Shown: positions 13,005 through 18,799 of the stretch, piece after piece
Layout of the letters: each line of letters starts with the position of its first letter
Numbering within the stretch: the stretch's first letter is position 1
Source: Solwaraspora sp. WMMD791
GTDB taxonomy: Bacteria > Actinomycetota > Actinomycetes > Mycobacteriales > Micromonosporaceae
Direction: 5' to 3'
DNA length: 64,000 bases
Assembly: GCF_029581195.1 (NCBI RefSeq)
Contig: NZ_CP120737.1
Location: 5,991,001 to 6,055,000, forward strand
The notes under the pieces: generated by a model
The model's database searches: none
Seen by the model: the letters and a program-made list of their open reading frames with translations, nothing else
Told to the model about the DNA's origin: nothing
Translations under genes and position numbers: made by a program

Positions 13005-13604
13005 CTAACTGGTTGGGGCGTCGCTCGACGACTGCGCGTGGGCCCGCTCGCCGTCCTGGTCGAAGATGGTGAGGATCTCGACCGGCCCGTTCACCGCGCC
13101 GATGGAGTGCGGGATCATCGTGGAGAACTCCGCCGCGTTCCCTTGGCCGACCGGGATCTGCCGCTCACCCAGATGCAGCAGCGCGGTGCCGCTGAGCACG
13201 AAGAACCACTCCCGACCGGGGTGCACGCTCAGATGCCCCGGACCGGTACGGCGCTCCGGGGTGATCCGCATCTTCGCCACCATGCTGCCGCCGGGCTGCC
13301 CTGAGCTGCGCGACAGCATCCAGGTGGCCAGACCCGGCTCCTGGTGTTTCATCGGCCGGATGATCACGTCGGCATCGTCGACCGGCTCGACGAGTTGATC
13401 GATCGTGGTGTCCAGCGCCCTGGCCAGGGCGACGAGCTGGTCCAGGTCGATCCGCCGGTGGCCGGTCTCGATGCGGCTCAGCGTGGACGGGCTCAGGTGG
13501 CATCGGGCGGCGAGGGAGTCGAGACTCCAGCCGCGCGCCTGCCGTAGGCCACGGATGCGCTGCCGGACCACGTCGGAAAGCTCGACCTCTGACACGCCCA
13601 CCAT
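13005..13604 (-). CDS. XRE-cupin transcriptional regulator
   Basis: A 199-residue regulator with an N-terminal XRE helix-turn-helix (LRQARGWSLDSLAARCHLSP then STLSRIETGHRRIDLDQL, about residues 18-58) and a C-terminal cupin_2 domain (about 110-185: HLSVHPGREWFFVLSGTALL and IPHSIGAVNG, with the metal-type His residues of a small-molecule-sensing cupin). Such proteins usually bind a ligand in the cupin and control a neighbouring transporter or detoxification gene; here that is the MFS exporter. The methyltransferase gene is divergent, and TAGGT-N3-ACCTA lies just upstream of the start. A GTG nine bases downstream of the ATG at 13604 is an alternative start. Confidence 0.85.
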   Translation of the reverse strand: MVGVSEVELSDVVRQRIRGLRQARGWSLDSLAARCHLSPSTLSRIETGHRRIDLDQLVALARALDTTIDQLVEPVDDADVIIRPMKHQEPGLATWMLSRSSGQPGGSMVAKMRITPERRTGPGHLSVHPGREWFFVLSGTALLHLGERQIPVGQGNAAEFSTMIPHSIGAVNGPVEILTIFDQDGERAHAQSSSDAPTS

Positions 13605-13606
13605 GC

Positions 13607-13619
13607 TAGGTGCTACCTA
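13607..13619. promoter_or_regulatory. TAGGT-N3-ACCTA palindrome in divergent promoter region
   Basis: A perfect 5-base inverted repeat with GCT spacer, starting three bases ahead of the XRE-cupin ATG and 64 bases ahead of the divergent methyltransferase start. It could serve both promoters; function inferred. Confidence 0.35.
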
Positions 13620-13682
13620 CTGCCTTCTTGCGGAAACCGCATGAACTCTTCCAGTTCTCGGAAGGCTCGTTACCGTCGAGGC

Positions 13683-14324
13683 ATGACCAACGAGACCCAC
13701 ACCGATCATCCCGCGTTCAGCGCCGACTGGTGGGAGCAGCACTATCAGGCGCACCCGGCGGGACACGTCTCGCCGGGACCGCAGCTGGTCGCCGAGGTCG
13801 CGGACCTGCCCCCGGGTACGGCGCTCGACGCGGGCTGCGGCACCGGCGCCGACGCGATCTGGCTCGCCAGCCGGGGTTGGCAGGTGACCGCCGTCGACGC
13901 CTCGTCGACTGCAGTCGGCCGCGCCAAGGAGCTCGCCGCACAACAGGATCACGCTATTGCGCAGCGCATCACCTGGCTCACCGCCGACCTGACCAGCTGG
14001 GAGCCGGCGCAGCGCTACGACCTGGTGACCAGCCAGTACGTCCACCCCGACCTGCCGTTCGACCGGTTCGTGGCACGGCTGGCCGCCGCCGTCGCCCCCG
14101 GTGGGACCCTGCTGGTCGTCGGCCACGACCACGCCGACACCCACTCGGCTGCCCACGCCCCCCGGGCCGCGTCGATCGGCTTGGGCGCCGTCGTCGGGTC
14201 CCTGCCCGAAGCGCAGTGGAAGGTGGCCGTCGCGGAGTCCCGTACCCGCGAGGTGCACCACGACTCGAAGCAGTTGACCATCCACGACTTCGTCGTCCGG
14301 GCTCACCGTACGCCGCCAGCCTGA
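13683..14324 (+). CDS. Class I SAM-dependent methyltransferase
   Basis: A 213-residue methyltransferase with the nucleotide-binding motif I ALDAGCGTGADAIWLASRGW (about residues 47-66), an acidic motif II (VTAVDASS) and post-motif LTADLTSWEP plus VAPGGTLLVVGHDHAD. The opening FSADWWEQHYQAHPAG resembles the small thiopurine/tellurite-type methyltransferases that modify toxic compounds, but the acceptor cannot be fixed from sequence. The ATG at 13683 is chosen over an in-frame ATG at 13641 because homology starts here. It is divergent from the XRE-cupin regulator and may belong to the same detoxification response as the MFS exporter. Confidence 0.83.
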   Translation: MTNETHTDHPAFSADWWEQHYQAHPAGHVSPGPQLVAEVADLPPGTALDAGCGTGADAIWLASRGWQVTAVDASSTAVGRAKELAAQQDHAIAQRITWLTADLTSWEPAQRYDLVTSQYVHPDLPFDRFVARLAAAVAPGGTLLVVGHDHADTHSAAHAPRAASIGLGAVVGSLPEAQWKVAVAESRTREVHHDSKQLTIHDFVVRAHRTPPA

Positions 14325-14356
14325 GAAACAGCGCTGCCTGCTGCCCTCGATGCCGT

Positions 14357-14390
14357 CTGCCGGGCTGGCCGATCGCGGCCAGCCCGGCAG
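14357..14390. terminator. 14-bp hairpin after methyltransferase gene
   Basis: CTGCCGGGCTGGCC, a six-base loop and its exact complement. It lies 32 bases past the methyltransferase stop and 38 bases before the end of the convergent 44-residue gene, so it probably works in both directions. Confidence 0.6.
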
Positions 14391-14427
14391 CCGTCCGTCA
14401 GTACGCAGTTCACCTGCCGGGGGCGCG

Positions 14428-14562
14428 TCAACTCCCGCCGTCGGCGTAGGGCAACTCCACGTGCGCCGTCCAGTAGCAGAGGTCGGCCCGGTGCTCGACC
14501 AGCGTGACCGGCTTGCCGCAGTGCTCGGAGATCAGCGTCGCCGCCTGATCGAGGTCGCTCAT
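14428..14562 (-). CDS. 44-residue hypothetical protein
   Basis: A possible small gene beginning MSDLDQAATLISEHCGKPVT and ending YWTAHVELPYADGGS. It reads like a compact folded peptide, not random translation: balanced helix plus strand and few Arg/Pro runs. It is transcribed away from the DUF397 gene 41 bases upstream. No strong ribosome site is visible, and it could be a remnant. No family recognised. Confidence 0.4.
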   Translation of the reverse strand: MSDLDQAATLISEHCGKPVTLVEHRADLCYWTAHVELPYADGGS

Positions 14563-14603
14563 CGGCGAGATCGCGGCAGCACGCGAGCGTGAGTGAGGCG
14601 AGG

Positions 14604-14825
14604 ATGAACGTGACCGACCTGTCTGGCCGGACGTGGCGTAAGTCGAGCCGCAGTGGCTCCGACTCCAACTGCGTCGAGGTGGCAGGGCTTGCTGGCCCTG
14701 AGGCACCCGGCGTCGCGGTGCGGGACTCAAAGGATCCGTACGGTCCTGTTTTGTCCTTTTCTGGCAACTCCTGGTCTGGCTTCGTGACGGCTCTTCGCCG
14801 TCGAGGTGACGCTGACGCACGCTAA
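14604..14825 (+). CDS. DUF397 domain protein (orphan)
   Basis: A 73-residue protein with the DUF397 pattern: WRKSSRSGSDSNCVEVAGL, AVRDSKDPYGPVLSFSG and WSGFVTALR. In actinomycetes DUF397 proteins are normally encoded directly downstream of a DUF5753-type XRE regulator and act with it as a regulator/antagonist pair. No such regulator is next to this gene, so it is an orphan. The ATG at 14604 has GAGG five bases upstream. The last codons and the TAA stop fall inside the palindromic element at 14800-14860, so the original C-terminus may have been replaced. Confidence 0.8.
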   Translation: MNVTDLSGRTWRKSSRSGSDSNCVEVAGLAGPEAPGVAVRDSKDPYGPVLSFSGNSWSGFVTALRRRGDADAR

Positions 14826-14860
14826 AACGCGAAAATAGCGTGCGTCAGCGTCACCTCGAC
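14800..14860. repeat. Palindromic element, copy 1 (25-nt arms)
   Basis: A perfect inverted repeat: 25-base arms at 14800-14824 and 14836-14860 around an 11-base A-rich loop with CGCG in the middle. The arms share the 20-base core TCGAGGTGACGCTGACGCAC with the element at 16328-16390, and the loops are related too. It provides the DUF397 stop codon and lies just after the end of the convergent DUF559 gene, so it may also act as a terminator. A MITE- or REP-like repeat is the best description. Confidence 0.8.
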
Positions 14861-14873
14861 CGGTGCGATGTGG

Positions 14874-15827
14874 TCAGGTGGTGCGTTCGGCGATCGCCGC
14901 CCGCACCTTTTGCACGACTTGTTCCTTCCGCCGGAGTACGTCGTCGGCAGTGAAGCGGAGCGCAAGCCAGCCGGCTTCCCGGAGCGCGTTGAAGCGGTAC
15001 ACGTCCTTGCGGAACGTCGCTCGCTCCCGGTGGTGGTCACCTTCGTACTCGATGGCGATCCGCCACTGCGGGTACGCCAGGTCGACCCGCGCGATGAACC
15101 GCCCCTTCCCGCTCAGTGAGGCGTCCCGTACCTCGTACTGCAAGGTGGGTTTCGGCAGGCCGGCGTCGTGTAGCAGCAGGCGGAGTCGGCTCTCCATTGG
15201 CGATTCACTCAACGGCTCCGCAAGAGCAAGGAGGTCCCGCACCTGCTGCAAGCCGCGTAGCCCATGGCGGGTGTCGATGTACGCCGCGAGGTGCGCGCGC
15301 GTGACAAGGCGGCGGCGTAGGACGGTGTCGAGGGCGCTGAGTGCATCAGCACGCGGCAACGAACGACCCAGGTCGAACGCGGTACGGACTCCAGTGGTCA
15401 AGGGAAGTCCGCTCAAGGACGTGATGTCGTCAGGGTCGAGTGTCCGGTATGCGGACTTTACTCTTGGGTACGAGTACCGCCTGGCCGTCTTCGGCAGGGC
15501 AATGTGTACCGGCACCACCGCCTGCCCGGGACCGCGTAGCGGCAGGAGGTTGGCCCCCCAGAGAAAGGCCGCGCTGAGCTCGTGGATCGCCGCACCGGGC
15601 GGCAGCCGTGCGGCGGCGGCTGTACACCACATCCGGTAGTCGTCGGGGTCGTACGAGCTCTCGTGTACATAGACGTCGGGGAGGATGCGGCGCCAGGACG
15701 GACCGTTGAGCATCCGCCGGGTGATCAGGCCGGCAGCGATGGCGCGGCTGCCGCAGAACGGTTCGAAGCTCAGCTCGCGTGGCACCGTGGCAGGGCGGGG
15801 CATCGGAGGAGCTTGCCCTGTCGTCAC
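14874..15827 (-). CDS. DUF559 (Vsr-like nuclease fold) protein with AbiEi-like N-terminus
   Basis: A 317-residue protein common in actinomycetes. Residues 20-60 (AIAAGLITRRMLNGPSWRRI, LPDVYVHES) resemble the winged-helix N-terminus of AbiEi-type proteins. The C-terminal DUF559 part (about 215-310) shows the PD-(D/E)XK pattern: an E in SPMESRLRLLLHDAGLP, then RVDLAYPQWRIAIEYEGDHH with the D and E-x-E residues of an endonuclease-like site, and WLALRFTADDV. Nuclease activity is expected from the fold but not shown for most members. The gene lies alone between the two palindromic elements with YnfA. The GTG at 15827 is used; an ATG 24 bases downstream is an alternative. Confidence 0.8.
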   Translation of the reverse strand: MTTGQAPPMPRPATVPRELSFEPFCGSRAIAAGLITRRMLNGPSWRRILPDVYVHESSYDPDDYRMWCTAAAARLPPGAAIHELSAAFLWGANLLPLRGPGQAVVPVHIALPKTARRYSYPRVKSAYRTLDPDDITSLSGLPLTTGVRTAFDLGRSLPRADALSALDTVLRRRLVTRAHLAAYIDTRHGLRGLQQVRDLLALAEPLSESPMESRLRLLLHDAGLPKPTLQYEVRDASLSGKGRFIARVDLAYPQWRIAIEYEGDHHRERATFRKDVYRFNALREAGWLALRFTADDVLRRKEQVVQKVRAAIAERTT

Positions 15828-15943
15828 CGTCGTTTTCTGCCCGGTACGCCGGTCCAGTCGCGCATCCGACTAAAGAAGACACTCCCGGCTCCAGGAGCAC
15901 CCGCCGGGCACAGGAGTACCGCCGGCAGCGTGGCCTTGGCCGT

Positions 15944-16276
15944 TCAGCTGCGTGGGGCGTACATGATGACGGCGACGCCGATCAGGCAGATCACCGCGCC
16001 GGTGATGTCCCAGCGGTCGGGCCGGAACTTGTCCACGACAACGCCCCAGGCGAGGGATCCGGCGACGAAGACGCCGCCGTACGCGGCGAGGATCCGGCCG
16101 AAGTTCGGATCCGGCTGCAGCGACGCGGCGAACCCGTACAGCCCGAGCGCGATCACCCCGGCGGCGATCCACAGCAGGCCACGGTGCTCCCGCCAGCCCT
16201 GCCAGATCAGCCACGCCCCGCCGATCTCGGCCAGCGCGGCGAGCATGAACAGGGCGAGGGAACGCGCGACGGTCAC
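15944..16276 (-). CDS. YnfA/UPF0060 family small membrane protein
   Basis: A 110-residue four-helix membrane protein with the family sequence pattern [20 protein letters not shown], then [23 protein letters not shown] and [16 protein letters not shown]. Length matches YnfA (about 108). The family is related to small multidrug resistance proteins, but its role is unclear. The GTG at 16276 is chosen because family homology starts there; a longer in-frame extension runs into the palindromic element. It lies between the DUF559 gene and palindromic copy 2. Confidence 0.85.
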
Positions 16277-16327
16277 GACGCTGACCCTACCCAGATCCCC
16301 GCGAGCATCGGGGGTACTGTCCCGCTG

Positions 16328-16390
16328 CATCGAGGTGACGCTGACGCACCTTATTTCGCGATTTTGAGGTGCGTCAGCGTCACCTCGATG
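16328..16390. repeat. Palindromic element, copy 2 (24-nt arms)
   Basis: Perfect 24-base arms at 16328-16351 and 16367-16390 around a 15-base T-rich loop containing CGCG. The arm core is the same 20 bases as in copy 1. Its right edge abuts TAG at 16391, which is in frame with the methyltransferase remnant that follows, so the element marks the point where that gene lost its 5' end. Confidence 0.8.
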
Positions 16391-17228
16391 TAGATCAAAC
16401 ATCGGGACGAGCGGGCAGCGCAGGGGTACGACCGCACCTCGGCAGAAATGTTCGCACGCCATGTGCTGGACCCGACGGTGGAGTTTCTGGCCAAACTGGC
16501 CGGCACCGGTTCCGCGTTGGAGTTCGCGATCGGCACCGGCCGGGTGGCGATCCCGCTTTCCGCGAAGGGCATTTCGGTTAGCGGGATCGAGCTGTCGCAG
16601 CCGATGATCGATCAGCTACGCCGCAAGGTCCCGCTGGCAGACGACCTGCCGGTCGTCGTCGGCGACATGGCGACGGCGACGGTTCCGAAGCGGTTTTCCC
16701 CTGGTGTACGTCGTTTACAACAGCATCGGCAACCTGCGTACGCAGGACGAGCAGGTGGAGTGCTTCCGTAACGCCGCCCGGCACCTGACGTCCGGTCGGC
16801 GGTTCGTCGTCGAGCTGTGGATGCCGGGCATCCGGCGGTTCCCACCGGGGCAGTCGGCGGTGCCGTTCGAAGTGACGGACCGGCATGTCGGCTTCGACAC
16901 CTACGACATGGTCACCCAGCAGGGGACCTCGCACCACTACCGGCGGAGCGACGACGGCAGCGCCAGCTACGGCAACAGCAACTTCCGCTACATCTGGCCA
17001 GCCGAGTGCGACCTGATGGCCCGGCTCGCCGGTCTGACGCTGGAGTGCCGGTTAGCGGACTGGGACGGCTCGCCGTTCACCGCCGACAGCGAGAAGCACG
17101 TCTCCGTCTGGCGTAAGCCCTTGACTGGCCCGGGAGCGAGACCGACCGATGGCGGTCGGAATCTGGATGCGGACGACGGCGCCGTACCGCTAGCGTCGAC
17201 CGGTAACAGCGACGACGGAGCCGAGTAG
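16391..17228 (+). pseudogene. Broken SAM-dependent methyltransferase
   Basis: Two adjacent frames together make a class I methyltransferase. The first runs from about 16394 to 16700 ([20 protein letters not shown], then [20 protein letters not shown] with the SAM-binding loop, then VVVGDMATATVPKRF). The second runs from 16702 to 17228 (VYVVYNSIGNLRTQDEQVEC, RFVVELWMPGIRRFPPGQ, then a C-terminal WDGSPFTADSEKHVSVWR). One extra base in the TTTTCCCC run at 16694-16701 shifts the frame; removing it gives FSLVYVVYN. The 5' end is also missing: an in-frame TAG sits exactly at the edge of the palindromic element and no start codon precedes ATG 16448. Two independent lesions indicate a true pseudogene, though the indel alone could be a base-calling error. 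Confidence 0.8.
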
Positions 17229-17242
17229 CGGTTGCGCCCACC

Positions 17243-17488
17243 GGAGTGACAGAGAGCCGCCCACAGCTGAGAGGGCGGACTCCGGCCCAGCCACGAAGAC
17301 CCTCCTGAGCTGCGGGAAAGAACGGCCCGTACGGGCTCAGTAGACTCCCGCCGACTCGCCCACGTCACGGGTAAGCGAAGGCCGCGCCGCGCGTACACCG
17401 CGATGGCGCGGTGAAGGTGTGGTGGCACCGCGAGGATCCCGCTCGCCCACACCTCTCTGGGGACGCGTTGCGCACACCGGAGGAGGTC
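17243..17488 (+). promoter_or_regulatory. T-box riboswitch leader, translational type
   Basis: The leader has the T-box Stem I distal pattern: CCGGAGT at 17241 pairs with ACTCCGG at 17278, enclosing GACAGAGAG, a CCGCCC/GGGCGG stem and a GCTGAGA apical loop. Downstream, GTGTGGTGGCACCGCGAG (about 17417-17434) matches the conserved T-box, in which TGGC would pair with an uncharged tRNA ending GCCA, i.e. discriminator G73 as in tRNA-Asp and tRNA-Asn. ACCTCTCTGG (17451-17460) is complementary to the ribosome site CCGGAGGAGGT (17477-17487), a sequestrator like those of actinobacterial translational T-boxes. A GAC triplet (17298-17300) is the candidate specifier. The fold was derived by eye. Confidence 0.75.
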
Positions 17489-17494
17489 ACCACC

Positions 17495-18799
<1,305 letters not shown>

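Follow-up and report, generated by a model that had tools for sequence, protein, structure and literature searches.

The stretch of DNA analysed here, called the window, comprises 64,000 nt of Solwaraspora sp. WMMD791 (NZ_CP120737.1; genome label G000) and carries two 59-bp palindromes, one on either side of a pair of genes that encode a DUF559 protein and a YnfA protein. Palindromes of this build adjoin DUF559 genes at most of the loci collected, mainly from the Actinomycetota, in five groups the arm found beside a DUF559 gene is dispersed in the same genome, and arm and protein have evolved together. In our judgement, these palindromes are probably the DNA partner of the DUF559 protein, that is, they would form a system resembling the repetitive extragenic palindromic (REP) sequences, in which a homing-type nuclease stands in the place of the HUH-type REP-associated tyrosine transposase (RAYT).

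Palindromes beside DUF559 genes

Both palindromes of the window consist of 24-bp arms around an 11-bp centre, 59 bp in total. A first-pass annotation of the window had described them as two near-identical palindromes, and they are real: the longest arms of copy 1 (14800-14824 and 14836-14860, 25 bp with 11 nt between them) are 100% complementary, those of copy 2 (16325-16351 and 16367-16393, 27 bp) are 96% complementary, and the two copies compared as 59-mers are 81% identical. The predicted single-strand RNA folds of the palindromes are 10 to 14 standard deviations lower than those of dinucleotide shuffles, and the 20-base core has 4 matches in the window versus 0 in 100 shuffles. An Rfam scan of 13500-17500 gave sub-threshold matches only, none at gathering score.

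The centre of copy 1 lies 44 bp beyond the stop codon of the DUF559 gene, and this placement recurs elsewhere. When the DUF559 protein of the window was compared with 110 element loci by tblastn, 9 of them were matched and the palindrome was near the gene in all 9; at most of these loci, including one from another genus (L161, genome G026), its centre is about 46 bp past the end of the coding sequence. DUF559 homologues at E 1e-30 occur in 101 of 200 genomes of the family Micromonosporaceae, and among 30 DUF559 loci inspected most genes are adjoined by palindromes of like build, whose arm sequences are very different between loci.

A set of 134 loci was then assembled, 54 from the family searches and 80 from named genomes, where the best 80 were taken among the 563 confirmed stretches listed; the set comprises Actinomycetota plus a few others and includes some redundancy. 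A palindrome was scored where at least 17 of 20 positions pair, in the interval from -20 to +130 relative to the stop codon, or in the 200 bp before the start. By this measure, palindromes are found beside DUF559 at 86 of the 134 loci (44/54 from the family searches and 43/80 from the named genomes, where one of the 43 was a run of N and was removed). Clustering at 80% identity reduces the set to 97 representatives, of which 61 have a palindrome, with 39/53 among those at least 45% identical to the window protein and 22/44 among those below 45%.

Palindromes are far commoner beside DUF559 genes than beside their neighbours. On the 3' side, a palindrome occurs at 66 of the 134 DUF559 loci versus 6 of 113 neighbouring genes (Fisher p 2e-15), and on the 5' side at 33/134 versus 3/50, while control windows of 150 bp from the same loci contain one in 12 of 2056 cases. 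The link between palindrome and DUF559, which the first-pass annotation had suspected, is thus strongly borne out. Among 67 palindromes on the 3' side, 50 are centred 20-51 bp beyond the stop codon. On the 5' side there are 35, at distances of 52-201 bp upstream of the gene, and only 11 of the 97 representatives have palindromes at both ends. Outside Micromonosporaceae (the group being our own assignment), 20 of 43 loci carry a palindrome, with Planomonospora, Jiangella, Rhodococcus/Prescottella and a Chloroflexi metagenome-assembled genome among the loci of this part of the set, and most mycobacterial loci are without one. As a separate observation, the DUF559 gene at locus L227 (G006) lies between two palindromes in mirror order, with TGATCA at the outer ends and CTCGG at the inner ends, an arrangement that resembles the ends of one unit.

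Arms that follow the protein

The similarity of arms tracks the similarity of the DUF559 proteins, with a Mantel r of 0.45 for 84 genes, 0.36 for the 61 non-redundant genes and 0.20 for pairs under 60% identity (0/2000 permutations in each case). In five groups (g1, g21, g7, g4 and Prescottella/Rhodococcus), the arm that stands beside DUF559 is also dispersed in the same genome. For example, the 20 copies examined in G052 carry the arm of the palindrome beside its own DUF559 gene at 8569951. Among the 16 copies of G026, 118 of the 120 pairs have arms that agree at no fewer than 22 of 24 positions, and only 1 pair has similar flanks; therefore, the palindrome itself has been dispersed, not large segments.

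The group g4 is taken to be Micromonospora, because the named Micromonospora locus L254 has the palindrome of the g4 locus L196. The g4 arm has 46, 52, 40, 35 and 70 matches in five chosen genomes with a close DUF559 homologue and 0, 0, 1, 10, 1, 2, 0 and 0 in eight genomes without one; G126, with a different palindrome of its own, has 12, and the reversed pattern has 0 in all. The Prescottella/Rhodococcus arm behaves similarly within Nocardiaceae: three genomes with that palindrome have 13, 25 and 18 matches, mostly as pairs 35 bp apart, a fourth with a related palindrome has 9, and three others have 1, 3 and 0, with 1, 1, 0, 0, 0, 0 and 2 matches to the reversed pattern in the seven genomes. 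In addition, among 9 copies whose stems are broken, 7 combine two arms that each occur in other copies as well (control, 3/180), and the arms therefore behave as interchangeable half-sites. Loci L196 and L198 of g4 also show arrays of alternating arms 3' of DUF559, which are similar to bacterial interspersed mosaic elements.

The dispersed family

In the 6.93-Mb genome of the window, searches with the 20-base core and, next, with a fixed-end pattern find further copies of the same length, with 1 and 0 matches, respectively, to the reversed control patterns. A covariance model, R1, built from 22 sequences, gives 32 matches there, that is, 16 places on both strands (E 0.01). In this model 93.6% of cells pair and 51 cells are changed on both sides versus 20.3 in shuffles, where it should be noted that the outer nine pairs were fixed by the selection of sequences and the outermost pair was partly assumed. 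The family is present in all 7 genomes examined of the window's genus. Among 150 Micromonosporaceae genomes searched with R1, 13 match, from 6 of 44 genera including that of the window, and outside this genus high numbers occur only in G026 (17 places) and in G052 (77 matches, two strands). Restriction of the family to the genus, as suggested by a strict-end pattern that matched 12 of the 200 family genomes (7 being those of the genus), was rejected, since the covariance model reached other genera and the strict ends were therefore too narrow; the 5 strict-end matches outside the genus are single, with interiors that do not look palindromic.

Intact copies are 57 to 61 bp long, and their feet are TCGAGG, GATCATG and others, none of them GTAG. 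The positions of 123 copies were judged with a simple purpose-made gene caller: 119 are extragenic, 1 is inside a gene and 3 are at locus edges. Copies between convergent genes are frequent (56/119 versus 130/481 intergenic regions) and those between divergent genes are scarce (14/119 versus 139/481). The first-pass annotation had suggested a MITE- or REP-like element, where MITE denotes a miniature inverted-repeat transposable element, and had held that a lack of further copies, together with the same junctions in all relatives, would speak for ordinary terminators. Copies do exist in G000 and in its relatives, so that objection falls away; a REP-like dispersed family (16 places in G000, 7/7 genomes of the genus) agrees with the suggestion, and a MITE in the strict sense is not supported, as no target duplication is seen.

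Some copies have features of their own. In G052, those at L229-L246 carry a one-sided conserved tail of about 60 bp and a second small hairpin, so that the unit is composite. In G000, L001 and L010 have 403 bp of right flank in common at 87% identity, and L010 has TGATCA at one end where the usual foot would be expected.

The DUF559 protein

Pfam assigns the protein to DUF559, and the AbiEi profiles of PADLOC match its first two thirds (E 6e-10). The AlphaFold2 model has a mean pLDDT (predicted local distance difference test) of 94. In VIA-align comparisons, the C-terminal part of the model aligns with the catalytic domain of I-Bth0305I (3r3p; Z 10.3, 96 residues, root-mean-square deviation (rmsd) 2.6), with the DUF559-like structure 3hrl (Z 10.0) and with Vsr (1cw0; Z 8.7, 99 residues, rmsd 2.3), and the N-terminal part (11-204) aligns with an AbiEi antitoxin (6y8q; Z 9.2, 177 residues, rmsd 4.7). 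The protein is thus predicted to combine an AbiEi-like DNA-binding domain with an EDxHD/Vsr-like nuclease. Residues E212, D249, E260, H266 and D275 do not vary among 42 proteins, and we assign them to the EDxHD motif ourselves. An NCBIfam search gave no family for the protein. At E 1e-5 it matches 1 of 50,697 phage records and 7 of 72,556 plasmid records, therefore the family is chiefly chromosomal.

Orthologous copies and inverted centres

Copies hold their places between species of the window's genus. Copy 1 occupies the same site in 6 of the 7 genomes (G000, G001, G003, G004, G005 and G006) and copy 2 in 5 of the 7 (G000, G001, G003, G004 and G005), G002 not having been examined for either. 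At the site of copy 2, G006 has about 1.2 kb of other sequence with no strong hairpin listed. Likewise, G004 has 4.4 kb of other sequence at the site of L116 (in a region whose synteny was guessed), and at the site of L071 the region of the copy is retained in most of the genus. Since the loci were chosen because they contain copies, rates of gain and loss cannot be measured from them.

Between orthologous copies, the centre of the palindrome (11-19 bp) is inverted in place in five sets (loci L109, L130, L075, L140, L132/L010, L137/L001 and L128/L078, and window positions 14830 and 16359). In L010 compared with L132, the centre is inverted and the unequal outer ends are not. These inversions are evidence of hairpin formation or strand exchange in vivo, which may be passive. 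Their use as proof of enzymatic action was rejected, because passive inversion through a hairpin is possible and the test picked up an ordinary hairpin at 14373 and an unrelated one in L076/L112/L129 as well.

A possible mechanism and its alternatives

A mechanism may be proposed in which a DUF559 dimer would bind the 59-bp palindrome as a duplex, with one subunit on each 24-bp arm and the centre as spacer, and would cut or nick in or beside the 11-bp centre. Palindromes would be copied to other extragenic places when such cuts are repaired or strands exchanged; the same process would keep the two arms of a copy alike, homogenise the palindromes and maintain the DUF559 gene beside its own site. 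Arm sequence and dispersed repeats are particular to each DUF559 lineage. Two published findings suggest this duplex reading: I-Bth0305I, an EDxHD enzyme, reportedly forms a dimer on a target of nearly 60 bp (partial text of PMC3943268), and AbiEi is reported to bind inverted repeats, in promoters (partial text of PMC7319586). The reading fits the 57-61 bp of intact copies and the chimaeric make-up of the broken stems. In a rival form of the proposal, the protein would recognise a hairpin of single-stranded DNA, as RAYT does; the long perfect stems and the in-place inversion of centres would suit it, but such inversions can be passive. In its most specific form, which we put forward only tentatively, the proposal is of an undescribed selfish or domesticated repeat system of Actinomycetota, with an EDxHD nuclease, AbiEi-like specificity, a 59-bp duplex site for a dimer and hundreds of lineage-specific palindromes, which may do without transposase chemistry and rely on hydrolytic cutting and repair.

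Several points weigh against a partnership of palindrome and DUF559. Binding of the palindrome, its cleavage, spread driven by cleavage, and mobility are all steps that we infer, and a Foldseek search against the PDB gave no match at E 0.001 or better (EDxHD/Vsr-like structures, E 0.019). At the threshold used, 48 of the 134 DUF559 loci are without a palindrome, more commonly among distant homologues. G116 has 10 matches to the g4 arm without a close DUF559. A second arm type of G000, GATGTGAGG, is present at four places without a matching DUF559 among the three homologues of that genome, therefore orphan copies exist; DUF559 genes that match this arm type occur in G001 and G003. Most sampled copies in the window's genus are old and fixed in place. 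The comparison of empty sites in related strains, which the first-pass annotation had proposed, yielded no clean empty site of the family (270 occupied versus 4 empty-like flank comparisons, in a biased sample). The 4 empty-like matches fall at two sites and were rejected, one being a different terminator-like hairpin and the other not clean. G005 has lost the copy that stands at L067 in G000; the deletion spared 13 nt of the left arm (site L338, near 15468-15560). Finally, no target duplication was found around 143 copies, that is, no excess of flanking direct repeats of at least 5 bases.

Could the palindromes then be terminators, or 3' hairpins that stabilise mRNA, held under RNA selection, which DUF559 genes merely tend to have? 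The very stable predicted hairpins, the complementary changes in the arms, the extragenic position of nearly all copies and their enrichment between convergent genes would be accounted for. However, such a role does not call for arms that differ between lineages in step with the DUF559 protein and are dispersed where it is present, palindromes also precede the start codon at a quarter of the loci (33/134), and hairpins of this kind are rare at neighbouring genes. Neither copy in the window is called by a terminator scan, although the scan allows loops of 3-8 nt only, and a T-run was not seen beside either. We consider this explanation unlikely. Somewhat lower still we place the possibility that DUF559 is an AbiEi-like regulator with the palindrome as its operator, the scattered copies being further operators or decoys and the nuclease acting elsewhere. 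The AbiEi-like fold, the reported binding of AbiEi proteins to inverted repeats in promoters (partial text of PMC7319586) and the palindromes upstream of the gene would be expected of it; the greater frequency on the 3' side (66/134), the preference of other copies for the 3' ends of genes with avoidance of divergent regions, and the invariance of the nuclease residues in 42 proteins would not.

It is also conceivable, but improbable, that these are ordinary REPs or MITEs spread by some other enzyme, such as an IS200/IS605-type or DDE transposase, with DUF559 as a passenger. A TnpA/TnpB element of IS605 type does lie between two identical palindromes in G002 (L090, 5000-7490), and the only Y1_Tnp gene of G026 is about 400 bp from a palindrome. 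The former element, however, interrupts the DUF559 gene situated between these palindromes and so came later. The Y1_Tnp profile PF01797 matches 8 of 23 genomes and has no match in the palindrome-rich G000, G006 and G052. An HUH/RAYT origin of the copies in G000 was therefore rejected, the Y1 genes near palindromes being the insertion in G002 and the neighbour in G026, and the REP-associated transposase that the first-pass annotation had envisaged did not turn up in G000 in the PF01797 search. Spread by another enzyme would, in addition, leave the DUF559 link in separate genera unexplained, and the missing target duplication is a further difficulty for it.

Neighbouring genes

The coordinates of the palindromes and the surrounding genes are listed in Table 1.

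Table 1. Palindromes and adjacent genes in the window of Solwaraspora sp. WMMD791
Feature	Position	Strand	Remarks
Palindrome copy 1	14801..14859	none	59 bp; arms 14801-14824 and 14836-14859; 11-bp centre 14825-14835
Palindrome copy 2	16330..16388	none	59 bp; arms 16330-16353 and 16365-16388; beyond the DUF559-YnfA pair as seen from copy 1, upstream of YnfA
DUF559 gene	14874..15827	-	317 aa; proposed partner of the palindrome; predicted AbiEi-like part ~11-204 and EDxHD/Vsr-like nuclease ~207-317
DUF397 gene	14589..14825	+	convergent with DUF559; stop codon inside copy 1
YnfA/UPF0060 gene	15944..16276	-	between DUF559 and copy 2; Pfam; neighbour
Methyltransferase remnant	16391..17228	+	start region missing beside copy 2; split over open reading frames 16448-16771 and 16704-17228

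Pfam confirms DUF559, DUF397 and YnfA/UPF0060, and YnfA gives no sign of membership in the system of palindrome and DUF559. Copy 1 sits between the DUF397 gene and the DUF559 gene, whose stop codon is at 14874, and the DUF397 frame ends at TAA (14823-14825). The sequence bears out the remark of the first-pass annotation that copy 1 provides this stop codon, and the copy lies here in all the genomes of the genus named above for it.

For copy 2, the same annotation had proposed that the element remodelled the methyltransferase gene. The in-frame TAG at 16391-16393, between copy 2 and the methyltransferase frame, and the loss of the 5' part are as described, but insertion of the palindrome is not the cause. 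In G001, G003, G004 and G005, copy 2 at the same place is followed by 60-90 bp and then by the methyltransferase start; compared with these genomes, G000 has lost about 75 bp beside copy 2, and its methyltransferase frame is also split further on. Because copy 2 adjoins a methyltransferase that has its 5' part in these four genomes, the truncation goes back to a deletion next to a copy that was already there and does not record its arrival. Further along, at 17203-17453 on the + strand, a match to the T-box leader that does not reach the gathering score (41.3 of 93 bits, E 6e-7) overlaps the start of an aminoacyl-tRNA ligase-like open reading frame (17411-18799).

Relation to known systems

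REP/RAYT is the textbook case of a chromosomal nuclease that lives with dispersed palindromes, and to our knowledge RAYT is the only known partner enzyme for such repeats. As in REP/RAYT (REPtron, TnpA_REP), a single nuclease-type gene is flanked here by short palindromes and the same palindromes are dispersed between genes. Co-evolution of palindromes and protein, complementary changes in the arms and orthologous copies that stay put are likewise described for REP/RAYT (partial texts of PMC2817692 and PMC8266576). On the other hand, the partner is DUF559, with predicted EDxHD/Vsr-like and AbiEi-like parts, instead of an HUH tyrosine transposase, the palindromes are about 57-61 bp long without GTAG, as opposed to 20-40 bp with a GTAG tag, copies number in the tens and not in the hundreds, and the hosts are mainly Actinomycetota. 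In PMC2817692, RAYTs that fit the criteria set there are reported only from gammaproteobacteria. Consequently, with no HUH transposase, no GTAG tag, longer palindromes and another enzyme, the DUF559 palindrome system works like REP/RAYT but is not a member of it.

The predicted nuclease fold is shared with I-Bth0305I and Vsr, and the reported dimer target of I-Bth0305I, nearly 60 bp, is close to the 59-bp palindrome (partial text of PMC3943268). Unlike these enzymes, DUF559 is chromosomal and not intron-borne, its gene lies beside its presumed site, and this presumed site is a perfect palindrome with many copies per genome. With the AbiEi antitoxins of type IV toxin-antitoxin systems, DUF559 shares the predicted fold of residues 11-204, the PADLOC profile matches and, as reported for AbiEi (partial text of PMC7319586), a possible affinity for inverted repeats; in contrast to them, its AbiEi-like part is fused to a nuclease, and no AbiEii-type toxin gene is found among the neighbours in the window (DUF397, YnfA, methyltransferase). 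The palindromes resemble MITEs in being short, dispersed, non-coding inverted repeats and differ from them in the absence of target duplication; no related DDE element or parent transposon turned up, although no systematic search was made for one. A literature search, with subscription papers and preprints largely outside its scope, found no paper that joins DUF559 to palindromic repeats; the two papers in which both terms occur deal with different matters, to judge by title and abstract.

DUF559 is a large family of unknown function. If the partnership is true, this family would gain a concrete and testable substrate, and a class of perfect palindromes in actinomycete genomes would be explained. 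The relation between the arm sequence and the AbiEi-like domain would be a directly testable code. With a second, unrelated enzyme, the arrangement of palindrome and nuclease would have evolved more than once.

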